From positions 1 through 27,689 of the IMG/VR virus record IMGVR_UViG_3300043331_000569: a DNA stretch of 27,689 bases, one strand, 5' to 3'. The DNA is from a virus. Shown piece by piece: positions 16,245 through 27,689 of the stretch; positions within the stretch are counted from its first letter, which is position 1; every line of letters starts with the position of its first letter. A model generated the notes under the pieces. It saw only the letters and a program-made list of their open reading frames with translations, was not told the origin of the DNA and searched no databases. Made by a program: the position numbers and the translations under genes.

Positions 16245-16261
16245 GGGTGTCCAGTGGGCCA

Positions 16262-16975
16262 ATGAAAATATATACGGTACACTTTGGAACATCACCAATC
16301 TACAAAAGGTTCTGTACTGTACTAGCTACTAGTGTTAGAGTAAATTCTCCTCATACTCCGTTGACCGTCCATAAGGTACAAGATTGTGACCCAGAAATTA
16401 CGTCCCGATTGAGGCATGGCCGGACGGGACACGACATTAACAATGCTCTGAAAACTAAGTACCACAACGATATCATCCAATCTGCAAGGAACGGAGAACT
16501 CCTTTGCCTGATTGACGTGGATGTTATAGTAACAGGAGATATGAGGGATGTGGAGCAAGAGGGAGAATTTGATCTGGCCGTTACAGTTCGTAGTGGGGGA
16601 CGGATCAACAGTGGTGTAGTATTCGTCCTGGTGTCTGAGAAAACAAAGGAATGGTATCGACGTTGGTATGAGCTAGTCTTAGTTTTATTGGATGATCCGA
16701 AACAACTAAGACAACTCAAATCTAAATATGCCGGGATTAATCAGTCGGCTTTGGAGACGATGCTGTTGGAACCACATGATTTGGTAGTTAAAAAGCTCCC
16801 TTGCAATATTTGGAATTGTACTCCTATCTGCTATCCACAATTTAATGAACAAACCAAAGTGGTTCATTTATTGGAGCAAGCTAGAAGGGTTTTTAGTAGA
16901 AGGGGAGTAGCTTCTGGTCCCACCCGCAAGGTTATCTCAATCTGGAATGAACTGGAAAGAAGGATAGGGAGATGA
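16262..16975 (+). CDS. GT-A fold glycosyltransferase
   Basis: About 237 aa from ATG 16262 (a GTG at 16247 would add five residues and sits against TAAGG with no spacing). It starts MKIYTVHFGTSPIYKRF, has a DXD-type metal and nucleotide-sugar site in LLCLIDVDVIVTGD (D85, D87), and the RINSGVVFV motif that follows the DXD in GT8/Nucleotid_trans-like enzymes. A basic C-terminal end (RKVISIWNELERRIGR) closes it. It should transfer a sugar from a nucleotide donor; donor and acceptor are unknown. It is the first gene of the sugar cassette, directly after the baseplate genes, and its stop overlaps the next ATG (ATGA). Confidence 0.75.
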   Translation: MKIYTVHFGTSPIYKRFCTVLATSVRVNSPHTPLTVHKVQDCDPEITSRLRHGRTGHDINNALKTKYHNDIIQSARNGELLCLIDVDVIVTGDMRDVEQEGEFDLAVTVRSGGRINSGVVFVLVSEKTKEWYRRWYELVLVLLDDPKQLRQLKSKYAGINQSALETMLLEPHDLVVKKLPCNIWNCTPICYPQFNEQTKVVHLLEQARRVFSRRGVASGPTRKVISIWNELERRIGR

Positions 16976-17838
16976 ATCTTGCCATAATTACCTCTTACTT
17001 CAATCCGTGCGGCTTCCAGACAATGCCGCAAAATTTCAATACCTTTATTGAGGGTCTCCAACCTTTTCACGACCGGACATTCGTTGGTGCATTGTACTTT
17101 GTAGATGGAGCAGTTACAACTATAAGTGCCCCATCCATCTGTGGATTTGTAGGTACGTTTAAGAACCACTGTATGTTCCAGAAGGAATGCTTGCTAAATT
17201 ATGCTATGGGGCAAGTACCTGTAGATTACGATGCGATAGCTTGGCTGGATTCAGATATTTTGTTTGGTACAGAGGATTGGGTGGAACAAGCTGAGAAACA
17301 GTTAGAACATTACCCAGTCATTCAGTTGTTTGAGCATTGCAAGTTATTAGATAAGGATGGTTCAGTTTTGGGTGTGCGAAATTCGGCAGCTAAATCGAAA
17401 GCCTCTAATGGAACAGGATGGGCTTGGGCAGCTAGGAGAGAAATTATTCAGGACGGTTTGTTGGACTGGGCGATCAACGGATCAGGAGATGGCTGGATGG
17501 CGGAAGCGTGGTTGAAATTAAGTAGATATCCGAGTGGTCGCTGGCGATTGTCATACCTTTCCAAGCCTATGCGTACTAAATTTAATAGATATGCCACGAA
17601 GAATTGGGGATTGGTGAATGGAACGGTGGGGTATATCCCACAGACCATTACACATTTATATCATGGCAGGATGACTGACCGTAAGTATCTACACCGTACT
17701 AGGTTATTGAAGCAGTATCAGTTTGACCCAGACCGAGATATTCAGCGGGATGGTCCTATTTATTGTTGGACTAATCCAGAGTCTAGATTAGCACTAGAAA
17801 TCAAGCAGTGGTTTAGGAGTAGACGAGAGGATGATTAG
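16972..17838 (+). CDS. GT2-like glycosyltransferase
   Basis: A 288-aa protein opening MNLAIITSYFNPCGFQ. Residues 88-97 read AIAWLDSDIL, a DXD-like nucleotide-sugar site. Then GTGWAWAARREIIQDGLLDW and INGSGDGWMAEAW resemble the acceptor-side region of GT-A enzymes in phage cassettes, and THLYHGRMTDRKYLHR near the end is a conserved His/Gly/Arg segment of the same group. Overlap with the preceding gene (ATGA at 16972-16975) and direct abutment with the methyltransferase gene show a single translational unit. Substrates are not predictable. Confidence 0.75.
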   Translation: MNLAIITSYFNPCGFQTMPQNFNTFIEGLQPFHDRTFVGALYFVDGAVTTISAPSICGFVGTFKNHCMFQKECLLNYAMGQVPVDYDAIAWLDSDILFGTEDWVEQAEKQLEHYPVIQLFEHCKLLDKDGSVLGVRNSAAKSKASNGTGWAWAARREIIQDGLLDWAINGSGDGWMAEAWLKLSRYPSGRWRLSYLSKPMRTKFNRYATKNWGLVNGTVGYIPQTITHLYHGRMTDRKYLHRTRLLKQYQFDPDRDIQRDGPIYCWTNPESRLALEIKQWFRSRREDD

Positions 17839-18528
17839 ATGGAGCATCGGGGATCACTATTGGATTATCCAAATCAATTGGTTCCTATGCTTGGCACCAA
17901 CTCTCCAATAATCTTAGAGATTGGTTGTAATGATGGCTCTGACTCATACCGATTTATCCAATTGTTTCCTCGTATAAGTCTCTACTGCTTTGAACCAGAC
18001 CCAAGGGCAGTTTTAGAGTGGGAAAAAAAGAATCTTCCTCAATACTTGGAAGAAGGAGGAAGTTGTCATCTACTAAATGTAGCTTTATCGGATCAATCTG
18101 GAAAAGCCAAATTTTACCAATCGAGTGGGAAAAAACCAAAGGTATTAAAACGGGATTGGGATTTATCTGGTTCCATCAATGTTCCTACTGGACACTTAGA
18201 ATTTAGTCCGTGGATAAAGTTTAGTTCTACTATTGAAGTGGAGACTATGACTCTAGACGAGTTCTATGGTCATTATTTAGCTGATCGGGTTATTGACCTA
18301 GTTTGGATGGATGTGCAAGGAGCAGAGAGAAAAGTAATTGAGGGAGGAGAGTGGGCTTTGTCCAATACAAAATTTTTCTACACCGAATTTGGGCACTGGA
18401 AGAAACCTCTTTATGAGGGACAAATGACGGCAAATGAGACTCAGAATTTCTTGGAACCAGATTGGGAATGTCTAGGAATTTATGAGGGATGTAATCTTTT
18501 AATGGCGAATAAGAAATATGGTGAGTAA
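17839..18528 (+). CDS. FkbM-family SAM-dependent methyltransferase
   Basis: A 229-aa protein whose ATG follows the upstream TAG directly. Motif I for SAM binding is IILEIGCNDGSDS (residues 24-36), followed by SLYCFEPDPRAVLEWE (post-I acidic loop), NVALSDQSGKAKFY, VETMTLDEFY, and DLVWMDVQGAERKVIEGG, the order typical for FkbM enzymes. These O-methylate sugars or other hydroxyls; placed between glycosyltransferases, the likely substrate is a sugar of the glycan being built. It overlaps the next gene by 11 bp. Confidence 0.85.
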   Translation: MEHRGSLLDYPNQLVPMLGTNSPIILEIGCNDGSDSYRFIQLFPRISLYCFEPDPRAVLEWEKKNLPQYLEEGGSCHLLNVALSDQSGKAKFYQSSGKKPKVLKRDWDLSGSINVPTGHLEFSPWIKFSSTIEVETMTLDEFYGHYLADRVIDLVWMDVQGAERKVIEGGEWALSNTKFFYTEFGHWKKPLYEGQMTANETQNFLEPDWECLGIYEGCNLLMANKKYGE

Positions 18529-19312
18529 TAGATTAATTTGTGCAATTTGTCCAACCTTTAATCGGCCACAGTGGTTAGGCAGGGCTATTAGAGCTTTTGA
18601 AAAACAGACCTATGAGAATAGGTTTTTAGTTATTATTGATGATGCGGGTCAGTATGAAAATCAAAAGGGGGATCGGTGGGAACTCATTTCAATACCAAGA
18701 CGAGTGCTGTCTTTAGGAGAGAAGCGCAATATTGGAGCATCCTTAGCTCCTAGAGATACCTGGGCTTATGCAGTTTGGGACGATGATGACCTCTATATGC
18801 CCTGGCATTTGGAAGCACTTGTGGAGGCCCTTTCCAGAGGATTATTTATTCAACCACGATACGCCATAGATTTCTGGCACAGTCGGTGGGTGCAGGTGGA
18901 AACATTTTGCAGGCCAAAACCATTTAGGACCAAAGGTAAGAGGAGACCAAATCGTGGGGGAGGAGATATTCACTCCAACTGGTTTTGTTATCACGGCTGT
19001 TGGGGATATACGAGAGATTTATTTACTAGAGTTGGTGGATATAGAAATTTGTTTGCTACCGATGATTGTGACTTTCAGGATCGTCTGATAGCTTTGCGGG
19101 TAAGGTCGATTGGGTTTTCTAACAAGTTCAAGCCGAGCTATTTCTATAATAGGCCACTCCTAGACAGAATTAGTGAGAACCAAAAAAGGATCGGCCTTGC
19201 TGCGTATTGGAATGATTCCCAAATTCCATATGTAGGAAAGGTCCCCGAGTGGACAGATGAATCAGAGTGGGATAGAGAAATTCCGTCAGAAATAATTCCT
19301 AGGCCCTGGTGA
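18518..19312 (+). CDS. Family 2 glycosyltransferase
   Basis: A 264-aa protein. It has the GT2 hallmarks: CAICPTFNRPQWLGRAIRAF at the start (residues 8-27), FLVIIDDAG, a GEKRNIGASLA segment, and WAYAVWDDDDLYMPWHLEAL (the DXD at about 88-91). A basic, glycine-rich loop (RTKGKRRPNRGGGD) precedes WGYTRDLFTRVGGYRNLF and ATDDCDFQDRL, the acceptor and catalytic acid region. It overlaps the FkbM gene by 11 bp and lies 4 nt before the next gene. It probably adds a sugar to a growing chain in the cytoplasm. Confidence 0.85.
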   Translation: MVSNRLICAICPTFNRPQWLGRAIRAFEKQTYENRFLVIIDDAGQYENQKGDRWELISIPRRVLSLGEKRNIGASLAPRDTWAYAVWDDDDLYMPWHLEALVEALSRGLFIQPRYAIDFWHSRWVQVETFCRPKPFRTKGKRRPNRGGGDIHSNWFCYHGCWGYTRDLFTRVGGYRNLFATDDCDFQDRLIALRVRSIGFSNKFKPSYFYNRPLLDRISENQKRIGLAAYWNDSQIPYVGKVPEWTDESEWDREIPSEIIPRPW

Positions 19313-19316
19313 TACA

Positions 19317-19892
19317 ATGGATTCTCTCGTAATAGACTTTAGTTCGCCAGAAATTCCCTGGTGGATGGTTTCTAGCCTTCGGAACCGATTTCGCTTGGAA
19401 AACTTCATAGAAACCGGAACTGGTTACGGGTTGACTGCAGTAGTGGCTGCAAAACTGTTCAAACGAGTATACACAATAGAGTTACTGCCGGAAGTTTACG
19501 AACAACAGGTTGGAGAGTTGTTGACAATGAAAAATGTTGAACGACTCTGTGGAGATAGTCGAGATTTATTGAAAGACATTGTAAATAGACTTGACAGTCC
19601 TTCGATGTTCTATCTTGATGCTCACTACAATGGAATGGGTGAAAGACGCTCGGATATAGAATGTCCCTTGTTAGATGAACTAGAGATTATCTTTGGGAAA
19701 CCCATGAGAACGAACTGTATTGTAATTGACAACGTAGGAATGTTTGTCCATCCCCATCCTCCCCACCGCCCGGAGGAGTGGCCCAAGATTGGAGAAATTG
19801 GAGAGTTGATCCGTAGTAGATGCCATTCTTCAATCCAGATTTTTTGTGACGTGATGTTAATTACTCCAGTACCTATTTTCACGACTTTATAA
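19317..19892 (+). CDS. SAM-dependent methyltransferase-like protein
   Basis: A 191-aa protein with NFIETGTGYGLTAVVAAKLF (residues 29-48) as a glycine-rich SAM motif I, VYTIELLPEVYEQQ as the acidic post-I strand, LCGDSRDLL, and MFYLDAHYNGMGER (residues 97-110) with ECPLLDELEIIF. The run ETGT ... YTIEL ... LDAHY ... ECPLLDEL is the signature of a class I methyltransferase-like family that recurs beside glycosyltransferases. It sits between a GT2 and a fucosyltransferase, so a sugar is the likely target. The stop overlaps the next ATG as TAATG. Confidence 0.7.
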   Translation: MDSLVIDFSSPEIPWWMVSSLRNRFRLENFIETGTGYGLTAVVAAKLFKRVYTIELLPEVYEQQVGELLTMKNVERLCGDSRDLLKDIVNRLDSPSMFYLDAHYNGMGERRSDIECPLLDELEIIFGKPMRTNCIVIDNVGMFVHPHPPHRPEEWPKIGEIGELIRSRCHSSIQIFCDVMLITPVPIFTTL

Positions 19893-20716
19893 TGATAACT
19901 TTTAGTCGTCTTGGCAGGTACGGTCAATTGGGCAATCAATTATTTCAGGTTTCCCTCCTTCTTGGGGTAGCTGCTAAAACGGGGTATGAAGTTGCAATTC
20001 CCAAAAGATTTAGAGGACATAAGAAAAGAGGCCTGGTTGAGTTGGAGCCGTTTGAGATCAAAATTACTGCTCTGCCAATGAGAGTTTCTGGCAGTCGATT
20101 TAGAATTTATCGGGAAAATGGATTTCCATTCAACCCACAAGTGTTCACACAGCCAGATTGGACCGATTATCAGGGCTATTTCCAGACGGAGAAGTATTTT
20201 GTTCACATCGAGGAAAAAATACGAGAGCAATTTCGTTTCAAGTCAAACATTGTAGATTATGCTTCTCAGTTTGTGTATAAGGAACGCGAAACAGAGAACG
20301 TAGTAGCTATTCATGTACGACGGGGCGACTATTTGGACAAACCAGATTTGTTTCACGTTTTGACCCCGGACTATTATAATTGGGCCGTTCATCATCCAAA
20401 ACTACCTCCCAATAGACAATTCATGGTTTTCTCAGATGATATTCCTTGGTGTACCGAGAATCTGAATCTAACTAGTGATAAAACTACATTTGTTACTTCT
20501 CCTTCCCACTGGCACGACTTAGCCATTATGACTTTTTGTGACCATCATATCATCGCAGCTAGTTCATTTTCTTGGTGGGCTGCATGGCTTTCCCACAATC
20601 GCAAAAATGTAGTGATCGCACCTAATCCCTGGTTCCCCACAACCAATCAAAGGGGATGGGATGATAGAGATATAGTTCCCGAACGATGGGAAAAGCTCAA
20701 CGTCTATGGGAACTAA
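19892..20716 (+). CDS. Alpha-1,2-fucosyltransferase (GT11)
   Basis: A 274-aa protein with the complete GT11 motif set: GRYGQLGNQLFQV (residues 8-20), VAIHVRRGDYLDK (138-150, the GDP-fucose-binding HxRRGDY), FMVFSDDIPWC (178-187) and IAASSFSWWAAWL (221-233). Length and order match bacterial alpha-1,2-fucosyltransferases (WbsJ/FutC type). The enzyme would add L-fucose from GDP-fucose in alpha-1,2 linkage, usually as a terminal cap of a surface glycan. No GDP-fucose synthesis genes are visible, so the donor must come from the host or from outside this window. Confidence 0.92.
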   Translation: MITFSRLGRYGQLGNQLFQVSLLLGVAAKTGYEVAIPKRFRGHKKRGLVELEPFEIKITALPMRVSGSRFRIYRENGFPFNPQVFTQPDWTDYQGYFQTEKYFVHIEEKIREQFRFKSNIVDYASQFVYKERETENVVAIHVRRGDYLDKPDLFHVLTPDYYNWAVHHPKLPPNRQFMVFSDDIPWCTENLNLTSDKTTFVTSPSHWHDLAIMTFCDHHIIAASSFSWWAAWLSHNRKNVVIAPNPWFPTTNQRGWDDRDIVPERWEKLNVYGN

Positions 20717-20718
20717 CA

Positions 20719-20919
20719 ATGGATATTCTTATCCAAAAACAGATCAAGTTTCACTCAGAGAAAATAACTCACCTTGAAAAAGAATTAGAGGCGAGAACGT
20801 CTGCGGGAACGAAACGGATCAATAAAGCAGAAGCCGAATTGCGGTTGGAACTAGATAGAATACGTGAACAAATCCGAGGCCATAAAGAAAAGATTGAAGA
20901 CCTCAAGCGATCAGCCTAA
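20719..20919 (+). CDS. Small coiled-coil protein
   Basis: About 66 aa from ATG 20719, supported by GGGAA 6 nt upstream; an ATG at 20686 would overlap the fucosyltransferase gene by 31 bp. The whole product is one charged amphipathic helix (KITHLEKELEARTSAG, EAELRLELDRIREQIRGHKE). No function is recognised; it could be a small assembly or lysis-timing accessory. It is the last + strand gene, and its end overlaps the end of the convergent ATPase gene by 9 bp, with no terminator hairpin between the two operons. Confidence 0.55.
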   Translation: MDILIQKQIKFHSEKITHLEKELEARTSAGTKRINKAEAELRLELDRIREQIRGHKEKIEDLKRSA

Positions 20920-21543
20920 CCTGATGATCTTCCCATGTCCTAGATTTTCACAATCTTGAATATGAGTCACCACAAGGAATTGAATGTTAAGTTCGATTGC
21001 AAGTTGCCGGATAAGGTCGAGCACCACCGGACGTAAATCTGGGTGAATGTGCCGGGCAGGCTCATCGAGAATTACCAATCTTCTCAGCTTGGGTACTGAG
21101 CTAACAATACAAGCCACTCGCAAAGCCAAGGAGGCTACATCTACTACTCCCCCACCTGCGGCATCCAATGGGTCGATAATCTGACCATTCCGACAGAATA
21201 CCAACTGAGCCTCGGTCTTATTCCTTTTCTTGGTGAATCGAATTTCAAAGTCGTAGGTATTCTCTCCAAACACTGTTTTTAGTGCTCTGGTCACGACGCT
21301 AGCTATCTGACGATGGACTCGATTTTGAATCTCTGCTGCTGCGGTCTGGACTATCTTCTGGGCCTCTTCCAACGCGGCAACCTCTTTTTGCAATCTCTGC
21401 CTATTTTGTCTCTCTGTTTTGTACTGCTGAACCGCAGCCTGGTAATTAGTCAGATGCTTGAGAATTGTGTTTTTCCAATTGCTCAAGGTAGATGTTATAC
21501 TCTCGCTGGAACCGGGCGAATTCCTTGTTGAACTTGCGATCAT
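20911..21543 (-). CDS. SbcC/Rad50-like ATPase, C-terminal half
   Basis: A 210-aa protein from an ATG with AAGGA 6 nt upstream. Residues about 20-85 are coiled coil (YQAAVQQYKTERQNRQRLQK). Then come the ABC-ATPase C-lobe motifs: a signature-like AAGGGVVDVASLALRVA (128-143), Walker B RRLVILDEPARH with catalytic Glu (154-165, D160, E161), D-loop HPDLRP, and the H-loop FLVVTHIQ (189-196). There is no Walker A in this protein; it lies in the gene at 23510-24523. The two must pair to make one active ATP site, as in Rad50 or T4 gp46. The first 98 bp overlap the coiled-coil gene in another frame. Role: DNA end processing with the SbcD-like nuclease. Confidence 0.8.
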   Translation of the reverse strand: MIASSTRNSPGSSESITSTLSNWKNTILKHLTNYQAAVQQYKTERQNRQRLQKEVAALEEAQKIVQTAAAEIQNRVHRQIASVVTRALKTVFGENTYDFEIRFTKKRNKTEAQLVFCRNGQIIDPLDAAGGGVVDVASLALRVACIVSSVPKLRRLVILDEPARHIHPDLRPVVLDLIRQLAIELNIQFLVVTHIQDCENLGHGKIIRLG

Positions 21544-21724: not shown

Positions 21725-21909
21725 CGCTTCCTCCTTTCTTGTTTTGGAGGAATAGCCTCTCCGGCAGCTTCAAGAAATTTCCAGGTCATTCTCCTATTGC
21801 ACACCAATCCTTTGAAGTATCTGTAATGGAGTTCACATTGTCCCCTGTGTTGGGCAGGGCGAGTGCATTGTTTTCCCTCTGTCTTCACCAGGCATCTATC
21901 CTTTTGCAT
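21721..21909 (-). CDS. Small zinc-binding-like protein
   Basis: About 62 aa from the ATG at 21909 (a TTG at 21924 would add five residues; GAGAAG lies upstream of the ATG). It has a Cys/His set DRCLVKTEGKQCTRPAQ then RGQCELHYRYF, that is C-x8-C-x9-C-x2-H, a pattern I know from small phage proteins described as zinc-ribbon-like. The end is basic (PPKQERRKR). It overlaps the SbcD-like gene by 14 bp and the coiled-coil gene by 4 bp, so it is part of the same translated unit. Function unknown. Confidence 0.55.
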   Translation of the reverse strand: MQKDRCLVKTEGKQCTRPAQHRGQCELHYRYFKGLVCNRRMTWKFLEAAGEAIPPKQERRKR

Positions 21910-22846
21910 TTCTAGTCTTCTCAATAATTTCTAGTAAAGCCTTTTTAACATCTGATTTCACCTTGGGATCGTCTAGGTGTTTTTCCAATAGTTCCAAAAA
22001 GTCAATAGTGTCCGTACTTAGTTTCTTAAATCCCTCAATCAGTTCTCTTAGATCGGCTTTTTTGGAATTGAATTTTATTTTATCCTCAGCCAGCCATTTA
22101 TCTTTGCTGGTGTCCAGATAGAGTCGTTGGATGGAACCGTCATCGTGTAGGATTCCAACACTCGGCTTGTAGTTACGCTGGTCTGAGTTGCGGTTGATAA
22201 TTGATCCACAATTAAAAACTGTGACTCCATCGTGTTCCGTCTGAAAGGCTAGATGATTGTCGCCCGTAACGACGTGGGTATATCTGTAGTGCTTGGCGAG
22301 TTTTAGCAGAGAAGTAACATGAGCCGATCTCGGAGCATTCGGAAAACTGGAACTGGCGGTCCAAACATACTGGTGGAGCACGGCAACTTTAATTTGGTCT
22401 TTTTGGTAGGGCAATAACTTTATCGGAGAGAGTTTCGATCCGAAAGGAAATCCTACCACAATAAATTTTGTTCCTAATCCTTCAATGGGAAACGGCTTTC
22501 CGGTGGGTAAGTCCCACAGGGTGTTAGCTTCTACCAAAGTTTGATAGACACTACGGTGTAGATTGTCGGATGAGTGAAATGGCAGATCATGTTGGCCGGT
22601 AACTGAATATGTTTTACTAGGGATGTGGGAAATTGCCCAGTTGATGAGTTCGGCACACTCGTTCCAATGATGTAGGACATCTCCTGCTTGTAGGATGGGG
22701 ATTTCACGAAGTTTACTTTGAAGTTCTTTAATTTGATCTAACTGACGCTGTTGTGCCTTCAACCAATCTGGTTCCGCTGATCTGGCAATCGGGGGTTTGA
22801 GGGACAAATGCCAATCGGCAGTTAATAAGCAAATTGGTTTTCTCAT
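21896..22846 (-). CDS. SbcD/Mre11-like metallophosphoesterase nuclease
   Basis: A 316-aa protein with all calcineurin-type motifs in order: LLTADWHLSL (D11, H13), LQAGDVLHHWNE (D56, H59), VTGQHDLPFH (residues 83-91), VAVLHQYVW (H158) and VVTGDNHLAF (192-201, D196, H198). The core length fits phage SbcD/gp47 proteins; residues about 240-316 form a charged helical tail. It should cut DNA ends in a complex with the Rad50-like ATPase whose two halves are encoded on either side. The third motif has Gln where most members have Asn (GNHD). The ATG is 2 nt after the upstream stop. Confidence 0.85.
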   Translation of the reverse strand: MRKPICLLTADWHLSLKPPIARSAEPDWLKAQQRQLDQIKELQSKLREIPILQAGDVLHHWNECAELINWAISHIPSKTYSVTGQHDLPFHSSDNLHRSVYQTLVEANTLWDLPTGKPFPIEGLGTKFIVVGFPFGSKLSPIKLLPYQKDQIKVAVLHQYVWTASSSFPNAPRSAHVTSLLKLAKHYRYTHVVTGDNHLAFQTEHDGVTVFNCGSIINRNSDQRNYKPSVGILHDDGSIQRLYLDTSKDKWLAEDKIKFNSKKADLRELIEGFKKLSTDTIDFLELLEKHLDDPKVKSDVKKALLEIIEKTRNAKG

Positions 22847-23509: not shown

Positions 23510-24523
23510 CTATACCGGGGATTTGTTAGTTAGAACTCCACCACAACTCGGGCATCTGCCACCCAACTGAGTCTCAAGACTTTGCCTTCTTCTCTCCAAC
23601 TCTGTACTGATCTGATTTACCTCTTTTCTCATGCTTCTCTCGGTTGAGATTAGGGCTTCGAGGGTGGAGGTTTGTTGGGATTGTTGTTTGGTTGTGGGCC
23701 AATCGGGCAGAGAGGGGAGTGGGGTGAGATGTCGGTCTAGCTGCGACAATTTGTCGTACATGGTTTGGAGCCGTGCTAGCTGGTTGGTCGAATCATGGGC
23801 TTGACCCCCGTGCTGGTATGCCGTGTGCGCAACGCTAATGGCCCGCCCAAGCGACGGAAGCTGCTGGTCGTATTGCGAGACGGTCCCCACCGTGCCGGCG
23901 AGAGCTTCGACGGTTATAGCGGTTTCCACGATCTCTTTATTTATTTTGTCTATCTTCTCCAATTTAACATTCAGCCGTTTGATGGGATTCAACCGGGCTG
24001 CCGTCCCCCGTGCTGTCTCTAATCGCTTCTCCACCACCTCTAACTCAGCTTTTTTATTCCTTAATCTTTTGCTCACCTCTGCCTGTACCCGGTCAATTGC
24101 ATCCAGATCAACTACACGGTTTAATTCCTTAGCTGCCTCGCCCGGCGTGAGAGAGAACCAAAACAAAGGCTGATGTTGGGATTGAAAATTGATGAGTTCG
24201 AGATTGAGTAGTTTCTGGATGGCTGGGGGAACCTCGTGCTTGAAAGCCCAGAACCGTTTGCTGTCCAGTTTATAGAGGTTTGTTTTGCCGGCTTTCCTTG
24301 TTACTGTGTGCTCATCAATCTCAGCCGATACCATAGTCTGAGTGGAGCCGTGCCGAATGAAGGCTTTTCCGATGGGTCGGTTGAATGTCAGCCATTTGAA
24401 TCCACGGATGATTGCCGATTTGCCAGAGTCATTCGGTCCCACTAGAATCGTCAGGTAGCGATCTAGTTTGATCTTGATTAGTTTGTGGTTCTGGTAGTTT
24501 TTCAGAGTCAGAAGTTTTAGCAT
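23510..24523 (-). CDS. SbcC/Rad50-like ATPase, N-terminal half with zinc hook
   Basis: A 337-aa protein. Residues 1-10 (MLKLLTLKNY) and LVGPNDSGKSAIIRG (28-41, Walker A) open a Rad50/RecF-type ATPase N-lobe; ELINFQSQHQPLFWF is the Q-loop. From about residue 145 it is coiled coil, ending in LGGRCPSCGGVLTNKSPV, with a CxxC zinc hook (C324, C327) just 10 residues from the stop. A normal Rad50/SbcC continues from the hook into a second coil and the C-lobe; here that part is a separate gene (20911-21543). AGGAAG lies about 9 nt before the ATG. The first 95 bp overlap the upstream gene in another frame. Confidence 0.85.
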   Translation of the reverse strand: MLKLLTLKNYQNHKLIKIKLDRYLTILVGPNDSGKSAIIRGFKWLTFNRPIGKAFIRHGSTQTMVSAEIDEHTVTRKAGKTNLYKLDSKRFWAFKHEVPPAIQKLLNLELINFQSQHQPLFWFSLTPGEAAKELNRVVDLDAIDRVQAEVSKRLRNKKAELEVVEKRLETARGTAARLNPIKRLNVKLEKIDKINKEIVETAITVEALAGTVGTVSQYDQQLPSLGRAISVAHTAYQHGGQAHDSTNQLARLQTMYDKLSQLDRHLTPLPSLPDWPTTKQQSQQTSTLEALISTERSMRKEVNQISTELERRRQSLETQLGGRCPSCGGVLTNKSPV

Positions 24524-25930: not shown

Positions 25931-26204
25931 TGATTGGTGGCTCCAAAATAGGAAATGTTGGAGGTTTAGAGTCGTAAAGGTTTTTATTAGCCTCCAACTC
26001 TTTTAGTGCTTGTAGGCAATCAAACAGTCGTGGGGTGCCGTAGCTGCCGGCAAGTGGCTTGTTTGTACATCCTTGCAATATGTTGTATTTTCTTACTGCT
26101 TGGAGGTAATCAGTATATGATCTGTATTTGAAGGCATCGGGAGGGATAGGAGGATACTCTGTCTGCGGTTTCTTCCTTCTACATTTGGTCTTTTTGGGCT
26201 TCAT
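25911..26204 (-). CDS. Unknown small protein
   Basis: A 97-aa protein. The N-terminus is very basic (MKPKKTKCRRKK), then a Tyr/Pro segment (EYPPIPPDAFKYRSYTDYL) and a helix (RLFDCLQALKELEANKN). The ATG overlaps the exonuclease stop (ATGA), with GGGAG 9 nt upstream. No family recognised. Confidence 0.5.
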   Translation of the reverse strand: MKPKKTKCRRKKPQTEYPPIPPDAFKYRSYTDYLQAVRKYNILQGCTNKPLAGSYGTPRLFDCLQALKELEANKNLYDSKPPTFPILEPPINDPRPS

Positions 26205-27055
26205 TTTGGAAACTCCCTATATTCAATATCAGTTTCTAACGTCCTAATTCCAAGCTCCCTCAACACTCGTCCCCACTGCAAATCTCCATCCGGTTTGATT
26301 TTGATAGGTTTCAACCCATCAAACGGTAATCTGACCAATGGTAGATTTCGCCTTTTGATTGCAATTCCTTCTTGAGACAAAATTTTATGGTATTTTTTTG
26401 ACCCCTCGCTCAGTGTGAGGTTTATAAACTTGATGGCTGTCTTTTCTCCAATTCCTGGGATTCCTTTAACTCCGTCTGTGGGGCACCCAGATAGTGCTTT
26501 TACTACCGCCCAGTCCCAAGGATCAATTTCGTAGATTTTGCGGAACCTCTGTAATGTCCATAGAAATTTCTTCCTCGGATCATATAATTTTACCTGGGTG
26601 CCGAGACATTGTAATAAATCCGAATCAGTGGAAATGATTATGGCCCGTTCGTTCTCCTGAAGGTTTTGACAAATGTGAGCGATCAAATCATCTGCCTCAT
26701 AGCCCGGTACACGAAAGATGTTCTGAAAACCAACCAATTGTAAGTATTTGGTTCGTAGCCCTTTGATCTGCTGCCGTAAATCCCATAGAGCAGCAATTTG
26801 GTTTTGAGTAAGATTTTGATGAGTGTGACGACGTTTCTTATAGTCTGGATAGAGTCGTTTGCGTTTTGATTGTTTACTATCAAAGCAGAATACGTTGGTA
26901 GCCGGACCAAATTGCCCCTCTAGTTGGAGAACAGTACCAAAAAATCCGAATAGGACTCCAGTGGGAGTGTTGTTATAACTCAACCCTCCTGTAGAGTAAA
27001 AAGCCCTCCAACAGAGTGAGTGGGTGTCGTGTAAAATAAACTGTTTCAATTTCAT
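26201..27055 (-). CDS. 5'-3' exonuclease, T5 D15/FEN type
   Basis: About 284 aa from the ATG at 27055, which overlaps the stop of the HNH gene as ATGA; an ATG at 27070 would add five residues. FEN-family metal-binding and DNA-binding motifs are in order: FILHDTHSLCWRAFYS (D10), NVFCFDSKQSKRKR, VPGYEADDLIAHI (E120, D122, D123), IIISTDSDLLQCL (D144, D146), and the helix-3-turn-helix CPTDGVKGIPGIGEKTA (about 191-207). It would remove flaps and RNA primers and resect 5' ends during phage replication. Length fits phage exonucleases. Confidence 0.9.
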   Translation of the reverse strand: MKLKQFILHDTHSLCWRAFYSTGGLSYNNTPTGVLFGFFGTVLQLEGQFGPATNVFCFDSKQSKRKRLYPDYKKRRHTHQNLTQNQIAALWDLRQQIKGLRTKYLQLVGFQNIFRVPGYEADDLIAHICQNLQENERAIIISTDSDLLQCLGTQVKLYDPRKKFLWTLQRFRKIYEIDPWDWAVVKALSGCPTDGVKGIPGIGEKTAIKFINLTLSEGSKKYHKILSQEGIAIKRRNLPLVRLPFDGLKPIKIKPDGDLQWGRVLRELGIRTLETDIEYREFPK

Positions 27056-27651
27056 ACTACGTGGGTCCATACCTTGTTTCTAACTATGAGGGAAACTAAG
27101 TTTTGGGATACCCCAAATCTTCTTCCTAGTCGCATCTGAGTATATTTTCCGGCAGTATGCAAGGTTTTTATTTTTTTAACCTTTCCTTCTGTTAGCTTAT
27201 GATAGGCCCTTCTTCCGTTTTTGAGTGCATCTTTAGAATTTTGCTCTTGGGTTCCCCACCGAAGATTCTGCACACAGTTATTTGTTGAATTGTCGTCTAG
27301 GTGTCTTGTTTGCATCCCCATAGGACATGGACCAACAAATGCCCACAGAACAAGATGATGAACATAATACCTTCTTCCTGTTTGGCCTGGTTTTATCAGA
27401 CTTACACATAAGTGTCCTTTTCCTCGGCCACAATACGACGGTTTAAGTATTCTTGGTTGAACTACTCGATATCCTCTTCTATTTCTTACCCTCCTCCTAA
27501 CCGATTTAATTCTTCCATAGTTTGACACCCTGTAATGCCCAATAAAGGATTCTTTGTTTCCTTTGTAATAGATTATAACCCACTTCCAGATTTCTTTAGT
27601 AGTAGTTTTCAAATTGTGGGCATCAATCAGTATGAGATTACGTAGTTTCAT
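27052..27651 (-). CDS. HNH homing endonuclease (NUMOD4-HNH-HTH)
   Basis: A 199-aa protein. Residues 20-52 (EIWKWVIIYY; GHYRVSNYGRIKSVRR) are a NUMOD4 DNA-binding module. YVHHLVLWAFVGPCP (96-110) and TRHLDDNSTNNCVQNLRWG (115-133) form the HNH catalytic site with H98/H99 and the N-rich helix; QEQNSKDAL follows. Residues about 152-197 (KLTEGKVKKIKTLHTAGKY; FGVSQNLVSLIVRNKVW) are a helix-turn-helix. Unusually, the first 14 residues, MKLRNLILIDAHNL, do not belong to HNH enzymes but match the start of the adjacent exonuclease (MKLKQFILHDTHSL, 8 of 14 identical). The gene abuts the exonuclease (ATGA). It is a mobile gene inserted at or near the exonuclease start. Confidence 0.85.
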   Translation of the reverse strand: MKLRNLILIDAHNLKTTTKEIWKWVIIYYKGNKESFIGHYRVSNYGRIKSVRRRVRNRRGYRVVQPRILKPSYCGRGKGHLCVSLIKPGQTGRRYYVHHLVLWAFVGPCPMGMQTRHLDDNSTNNCVQNLRWGTQEQNSKDALKNGRRAYHKLTEGKVKKIKTLHTAGKYTQMRLGRRFGVSQNLVSLIVRNKVWTHVV

Positions 27652-27689
27652 ACCCTAAGACTTGTCGGGATGATTGACTGTCTCTTTAC

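Follow-up and report, generated by a model that had tools for sequence, protein, structure and literature searches.

A Probable Remnant of an Invaded Exonuclease Gene at the Start of a Phage HNH Endonuclease Gene

Introduction

Free-standing homing endonucleases are common in phages, and where such an enzyme cuts and how its gene comes to settle beside a gene that the phage needs are usually hard to read from a single genome. The window analysed here, a 27,689-base virus fragment (IMGVR_UViG_3300043331_000569) taken at its full length, holds a locus that raises this question directly. An HNH endonuclease gene lies immediately upstream of a 5'-3' exonuclease gene, and the two proteins begin alike. 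Why should a nuclease gene open with a leader that resembles the start of its neighbour? Our reading, to which we give a probability of roughly 80%, is that an HNH element invaded an exonuclease gene, of which the leader is the stub, and that the donor brought both the HNH gene and a new start for the exonuclease gene. The features of the locus are collected in Table 1.

Table 1. Features of the HNH/exonuclease locus, in coordinates of the window.
Feature	Position	Strand	Remarks
End of upstream reading frame (VKRQSIIPTSLRV, then stop)	27648-27689	(-)	TGA overlaps the stub ATG; just 38 bases in view
HNH ORF	27052-27651	(-)	199 residues; starts MKLRNLILIDAHNL
Predicted stub MKLRNLILIDAHNL, 14 codons, read as the 5' end of an exonuclease gene in frame with HNH	27610-27651	(-)	17.8 bits against the FEN N-terminal profile
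TTG, stub codon 14, possible HNH start codon (MKTTTKEIWKW)	27610-27612	(-)	8 codons before the aligned Trp
HNH endonuclease proper	27052-27609	(-)	NUMOD4-like N-terminus, HNH_3, helix-turn-helix-like C-terminus
ATGA overlap of HNH stop and exonuclease start	27052-27055	(-)	Direct sequence reading
5'-3' exonuclease, FEN / PolI 5'-nuclease family	26201-27055	(-)	284 aa; starts MKLKQFILHDTHSL
Second exonuclease 5' end MKLKQFILHDTHSL	27014-27055	(-)	DNA-diverged from the stub; 20/42 bases common

The HNH and Exonuclease Genes

The HNH ORF matches Pfam HNH_3 at 3.4e-11 (43 bits against a cut-off of 24.8) and NUMOD4 at 2.1e-4, the 21.9 bits of the latter falling slightly under the curated cut-off of 23.4. 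It also matches phrog_59 (5e-40) and, weakly, the HTH family phrog_517 (0.003). The exonuclease belongs to the FEN / PolI 5'-nuclease family. It matches Pfam PF02739 (5_3_exonuc_N) at 1.4e-26, its family profile matches Taq polymerase (3e-37) and the 5'-exonuclease 1exn (3e-24), and it keeps every column that is invariant in the family (D10, D59, E120, D122, D123, D144 and D146). In an AlphaFold2 model made from 14 sequences, with a mean pLDDT of 92.2, residues 4-10 form strand 1, which ends at the invariant Asp10. It follows that the reading frame from 27055 onward already encodes a complete exonuclease. The GC contents of the stub (0.36), the HNH gene (0.39) and the exonuclease start (0.38) are so close that composition says little here.

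Elsewhere in the window, an SbcC/SMC-like ATPase is seemingly split. Its N-terminal half is at 23510-24523 (AAA_23, phrog_77), its C-terminal ATPase half, recognized by eye, is at 20911-21543, and the several genes that separate them include a phosphoesterase-like gene at 21896-22846. A run of genes at 16247-20716, between the structural and recombination genes, resembles glycosyl- and methyltransferases by eye.

The first-pass annotation, made from the window alone, proposed that the HNH protein proper starts after residue 14, and conceded that its reading would suffer if the same leader were found on HNH genes away from exonucleases. The leader is present on none of the best 80 related HNH loci. 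In 30 of 31 HNH relatives, the nearest start codon, with ATG preferred, lies 1-11 codons before the aligned NUMOD4 Trp; in the other, it lies at 29. The ATG of the window HNH ORF is 21 codons before this Trp, and leader codon 14, a TTG, stands 8 before it, at the typical distance. No clear ribosome-binding site was seen by eye for the candidate TTG start. The distances bear out the proposal that the HNH core starts after residue 14.

The Leader and the Exonuclease N-Termini

The leader and the resident exonuclease start agree at 8 of 14 residues and at 20 of 42 bases, which reproduces the counts first reported, and different codons are used at five of the seven identical residues that have degenerate codons. 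For comparison, at least 135 exonuclease loci were gathered in two profile scans, and a FEN profile was made of residues 5-14 from 130 of them, comprising 103 unique contexts, with the window left out. The leader scores 17.8 bits against this profile, above 25% of the family (103 contexts among the matches listed). The resident exonuclease start scores 6.0 bits, under all 103 of the contexts among the matches listed, mainly because of its His9, a residue found at that position in none of them. Thus, the leader is a better FEN start than the one the exonuclease has at present. The unusual His9 could be a mark of decay and not of import. It had also been allowed beforehand that uninterrupted relatives might prove unlike the leader; by the FEN profile, they resemble it. 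A separate peculiarity in the family is an exonuclease relative with an in-frame stop ahead of the conserved Asp (L060:3001-3020).

Could the leader simply be an N-terminal segment of the HNH protein that resembles FEN starts by chance or convergence? The match is short, and both proteins begin MKL. Among 3,433 background N-termini, only the window's own HNH, which had been read from locus L001, equals the leader score when the register is kept; two do so when any register within the first 30 residues is allowed. A shuffled leader attains it 8 times in 200,000. The profile score and these counts oppose a coincidence, as do the lack of the leader on the related HNH loci and the existence of four other HNH loci that match their own neighbour instead (see below), and we find this explanation hardly credible. 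The likeness of the leader to the exonuclease start that was remarked on in the first pass goes beyond chance by these measures, and that observation is confirmed.

It had further been suggested that transcripts might be spliced from 27610 to 27013, so that the stub would be exon 1 of the exonuclease gene, joined to residue 15. HNH genes in phage introns are known (excerpted text of PMC10448857), and a chimaera of stub and exonuclease would give a better FEN start. Over 26100-27689, however, there is no Rfam match at E<=1, a search that a divergent intron could escape. The HNH frame fills 27609-27052, nearly the whole of the supposed intron, so that a ribozyme core would have no space of its own. 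The second start also keeps Asp10 and forms strand 1 in the confident model. Since there is neither an Rfam match nor room, and since the second start is complete, splicing is most improbable, and the suggestion is unsupported.

Relatives and Neighbourhood of the Exonuclease

A near-identical uninterrupted relative of the window phage was not found. The closest exonucleases among the matches listed are about 45% identical, and for that reason the transfer proposed for the window is argued from the FEN profile and from the parallel cases described below. When viral_contigs was searched with the exonuclease or the HNH protein as a single query, no relative was returned, so profiles were needed. 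A DNA pattern of both starts joined to CWRA[FY] matched 0 stretches, and a scan of genome_contigs yielded distant relatives only, the best listed rows being about 33-35% identical, which were set aside.

A RecA-like gene lies upstream of the exonuclease in 106 of the 135 loci listed, no more than 60 nt away in 38 of them; it is downstream in 9, and none was found in 20. Relative to the stop of the adjacent RecA-like gene, the exonuclease start is offset by -7 in 14, by -3 in 11 and by 0 in 5 of these 38 listed loci. The leader ATG of the window has the same -3 overlap with the upstream frame, of which the window holds just the final bases (Table 1). A count of ATGA overlaps in relatives (91/121) was discarded because any ATG followed by A yields ATGA.

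Several relatives have an HNH gene at this junction. In L050 and L056, HNH genes of other kinds are flush against an intact exonuclease start. In L223, an HNH gene is likewise flush, and the exonuclease has one extra base just before the Asp10 codon, which breaks the frame of the start (L223:2638-2700); sequencing error, decay or an imperfect joint are candidate causes. In L190, another HNH gene lies between the RecA-like gene and the exonuclease, not flush. A copy of the leader is absent in all four. The layouts of L050, L056 and L223, with HNH directly upstream of the exonuclease, look like the one predicted for a donor, the kind of HNH being different from the window's in each (0/3 the same). 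More generally, the RecA-like/exonuclease junction holds varied endonuclease-like genes (L050:2388-3002, L056:2435-2989, L190:2312-2770 and L024:1930-2973), representing three HNH kinds and, in L024, a gene that is GIY-YIG-like by eye only. Two candidates of similar appearance were rejected. Sinorhizobium phage phiM19 has an HNH gene before an 'exonuclease', and it is a different case in which the two gene starts are dissimilar. The HNH of EBPR siphovirus 3 begins 16 residues into the aligned HNH, and the next gene is unrelated.

Recurrence at Other HNH Loci

If the leader is the remnant of an invaded gene, is the arrangement found elsewhere? The N-terminus of each related HNH ORF was compared with the starts of the ORFs directly downstream, anchored on Met and with upstream starts considered in all three frames; 73 of the best 80 related HNH loci were testable. 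At four of these 73, a diverged copy of the downstream gene's N-terminus opens the HNH ORF and is in frame with it. The recurrence score is reached by 3 of 5,256 mismatched pairs. The downstream gene is without a Pfam match in L159 (stub MPVIAGIGDMAN, new start MPIITGIGDMAA), NblA-like in L169 (MNNLPPEKEFTH and MNDLPIEKQLTH), a lysin B in L166 (MRVIKLNGAGES and MKVIAVRGAGEE) and a RecD2-like helicase in L113 (MHRHKELIGVEY and MHRHEEVSGVFD). Across all three frames of the 73 loci, no out-of-frame stub match was found at a score of at least 28. For four of four matches to be in frame has a random chance of about 1 in 81, which is to be read with the small number in mind.

Controls of this kind are sensitive to what lies downstream. 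A first control that kept HNH-like downstream ORFs gave 50 of 4,032 mismatched pairs at score 35, a poor result because neighbouring HNH genes resemble each other. Removal of the HNH-like downstream ORFs brought this down to 4 of 4,032 mismatched pairs, with 5 of 64 loci matching. L128, among these five, is an apparent tandem HNH pair and was left uncounted. L102 and L112 appear to be tandem pairs as well, and the alike N-termini of such pairs disturb simple controls. A second, zinc-ribbon-like HNH family, taken from L050, L223 and Malisha, gave 0 of 71 at a score of at least 33; L321 and L322, which are copies of L050 and L223, were left out of that test.

At the window and at all four loci, the stub and the second start differ at the DNA level. 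Different codons are used for identical residues at 5 of 7 positions in the window, 6 of 9 in L159, 4 of 9 in L169, 5 of 6 in L166 and 2 of 6 in L113. These figures bear on the possibility that the 5' end of the exonuclease gene was merely copied when the HNH gene inserted, the copies having drifted since. The two copies do flank the HNH gene and agree at 8 of 14 residues; the codon differences in the window speak against a copy, and a sharper comparison is available in Malisha (next section).

In L159, the stub has a third-position GC of 0.93, the new start one of 0.45 over its first 20 codons, and the seven blocks that follow have values of 0.85-1.0, a pattern that points to a short imported tract. 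Searches of named phages for relatives of L159, L169 and L113 that lack the HNH gene gave no match, or only ones of <60% identity; two short matches fell outside the target. The relatives of the L159 target (L402, L404 and L405, from viral_contigs) are no closer to the stub than to the new start and are too distant to distinguish the two.

Malisha, Spooky and the Lysin B Genes

In Gordonia phage Malisha (OP434458), the lysin B gene, gp30, is immediately preceded by gp29, annotated as an 'HNH endonuclease'. Over its first 83 nt, gp29 is 100% identical to the beginning of lysB in Spooky and Squiddly, phages with no HNH gene there. Only one of 63 matching records, that of Malisha, holds at least 80% of gp29, and in 59 other gp29 matches listed, the similarity extends no further than base 83 and falls in a gene annotated as lysin B or endolysin. 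In the stretches compared, Malisha and Spooky are identical at 2,464 of 2,464 nt up to lysB nt 83 and then differ. Right of this junction, Malisha has the HNH gene and then a complete, diverged lysB, which matches that of Spooky at 54 of 87 aligned nt at the start and at 445 of 534 afterwards. The protein is largely kept, with a start of MTRVYKLRGAGEPLDGRNMLSSIPG versus MRVVKLRGAGESLGGRNMLSSIAG. The later tail genes differ more than lysB, and 100% identity never resumes in the 6.5 kb compared. From the identity on the left and the divergence on the right, the joint of stub and HNH in Malisha is the exact edge of a recombined segment. By this comparison, the stub comes from a Spooky-like parent, and the HNH gene and the intact lysB from another parent.

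Malisha also decides against a duplication there. With the stub at 83 of 83 nt to Spooky and the second copy at 54 of 87, the second copy is no recent duplicate of the stub. Taken with the codon differences in the window, we consider that local duplication is very unlikely as the origin of the two starts.

The target of L166 is also a lysin B of Gordonia phages, its HNH is of the NUMOD4 type, and the joint is at codon 12 of the same gene. The 72 nt upstream match Ecliptus at 63. Identity of the lysin B is 40-65% over the first four 60-column blocks and rises to 77-94% in the later ones.

The divergence profiles bear on a variant of the invasion, in which the HNH element carries a spare recoded 5' end as cargo and enters as a closed cassette, both flanks then belonging to one recipient. 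This would be a mirror image of the mitochondrial elements that bring a foreign C-terminus (see below). In L159, the foreign-looking tract after HNH runs for about 20 codons, after which the genome composition returns, and in L166 lysB is strongly diverged in only about the first 70 codons; both agree with such a cassette. Malisha does not, since it differs from the left-hand parent everywhere right of the junction, with no 100% identity within 6.5 kb. A closed cassette fits L159 somewhat better than a long donor tract of the Malisha type does; for the window we judge it unlikely. The first-pass annotation had proposed that the second 5' end was supplied to keep the exonuclease whole. It does complete the gene; in Malisha it is no spare carried by the element, since the second end there belongs to a complete donor gene directly downstream of HNH, and the stub is the part of the recipient's gene left at the recombination boundary.

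Another annotated HNH endonuclease follows a few kilobases later in Malisha and Spooky alike (L408:5679-6248 and L409:5622-6200), at a place where both genomes are partly alike again.

Proposed Course of Events

Insertion of the HNH gene after codon 14 of an exonuclease gene and the presence of a second, diverged 5' end, as first proposed for the window, make up the best explanation and are supported by the FEN profile, the four further loci and the comparison of Malisha with Spooky. The invasion might have run as follows. In the ancestral operon, the exonuclease gene would have begun at 27651, directly after the upstream gene, which is RecA-like in relatives. The donor would have been a related phage in which a free-standing HNH homing gene stood immediately before that phage's exonuclease gene. 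During a co-infection, the HNH protein may have cut the recipient's exonuclease gene near codon 14. Repair would then have left codons 1-14 of the recipient gene fused to the beginning of HNH, a step for which the DNA boundary is seen in Malisha, and would have imported the donor HNH gene along with at least the start of the donor exonuclease gene. The in-frame joint would let ribosomes that initiate at the former exonuclease ATG continue through HNH and stop at the ATGA that includes the new exonuclease start. The overlaps suggest that both genes stay translated by this read-through and by re-initiation. The new start encodes a similar peptide in different codons, so that it would not need to be cut again. 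The stub and its family, the in-frame fusion and the start/stop overlaps are seen directly in the window, as is the recombination edge in Malisha; we infer that the HNH protein made the cut, that it did so near the end of the stub, and that the second start is resistant.

Relation to Known Systems

Mobile ORF (mORF) elements of fungal mitochondria bring a foreign gene end, as in Allomyces atp6 and Glomus atp6, atp9, cox2 and nad3 (excerpted text of PMC3630166). As described there, such elements share with the window an endonuclease ORF inside a gene and a native end left as a remnant. In them a foreign end continues the gene, as is probable in the window; a foreign origin of the second gene end is seen in Malisha and indicated by composition in L159. 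The mitochondrial elements replace the C-terminus (same excerpt of PMC3630166). In the window it is the N-terminus of a phage gene, and the frame of the stub runs on into that of the endonuclease; in Malisha, the right side is donor DNA over all that was compared. The resemblance to end-replacing elements drawn in the first pass holds for the gene remnant and for an HNH gene lying inside a gene, and does not extend to which end is replaced. The window element works like an mORF element and is not classed as one because the replaced end is the N-terminus.

Mitochondrial introns of Tremella fuciformis come with an N-terminal duplication, for which an exchange of gene fragments was proposed (excerpted text of PMC7315562). 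They share with the window a mobile DNA accompanied by a diverged duplicate of the N-terminal part of the host gene. By that excerpt, they are predicted introns, one of six being confirmed, whereas the window has a free-standing HNH gene and no intron signal (PMC7315562).

In T4-like phages, free-standing endonucleases are described that home without introns, as are gene-splitting insertions (excerpted text of PMC2988022). A free-standing endonuclease gene beside or inside its target, marker exclusion and the start/stop overlaps of mobE/nrdA are points in common. In the cases treated in that excerpt, the target is left whole or in two working parts, whereas in the window a second 5' end gives the gene a new beginning and the old one persists as a stub. 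Nuclease genes at the boundaries of genetic exchange are also known, and the Malisha HNH gene lies, like the homing genes there, exactly at the edge of a recombined segment; the excerpted text of PMC10448857 makes no mention of a recipient-gene stub in frame with the nuclease gene. Cluster J mycobacteriophages have HNH insertions near lysin genes, so that HNH next to lysis genes is common to both. The right junction is unclear there, with unmatched lysin A 5' ends, and one insertion gives lysin A a new 3' end; a stub fused to the HNH gene is not described in the excerpted text of PMC3706429.

In the open-licence PMC literature, we found no description of a phage HNH gene that opens with an in-frame stub of the gene it targets. 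We regard the arrangement as a probably new variant of free-standing phage homing that mirrors mitochondrial gene-end replacement, the cleavage and the homing being the presumed part of it.

Implications

An in-frame stub, an HNH gene and a codon-diverged second start together record both parents and bracket the likely cut site. Any phage genome can be screened for this layout if the first 10-30 residues of each HNH ORF are set against the gene that follows. It also carries two warnings for annotation, namely that the N-terminus of such an HNH protein may not belong to the nuclease, and that the second gene start may differ in origin from the rest of its gene. Malisha and Spooky, both cultured on Gordonia terrae 3612, are a ready laboratory pair for testing homing.

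Tentatively, and with less than even odds, we extend the reading to the NUMOD4-HNH_3 homing genes as a group. They may spread by cutting within the first 10-30 codons of conserved phage genes, with selection retaining only the in-frame stub fusions. The old start would drive HNH, re-initiation from an overlapping start codon would drive the synonymously recoded, cut-resistant target, and for many of these genes the stub would be a readable scar of the recipient, the donor and the cut site.
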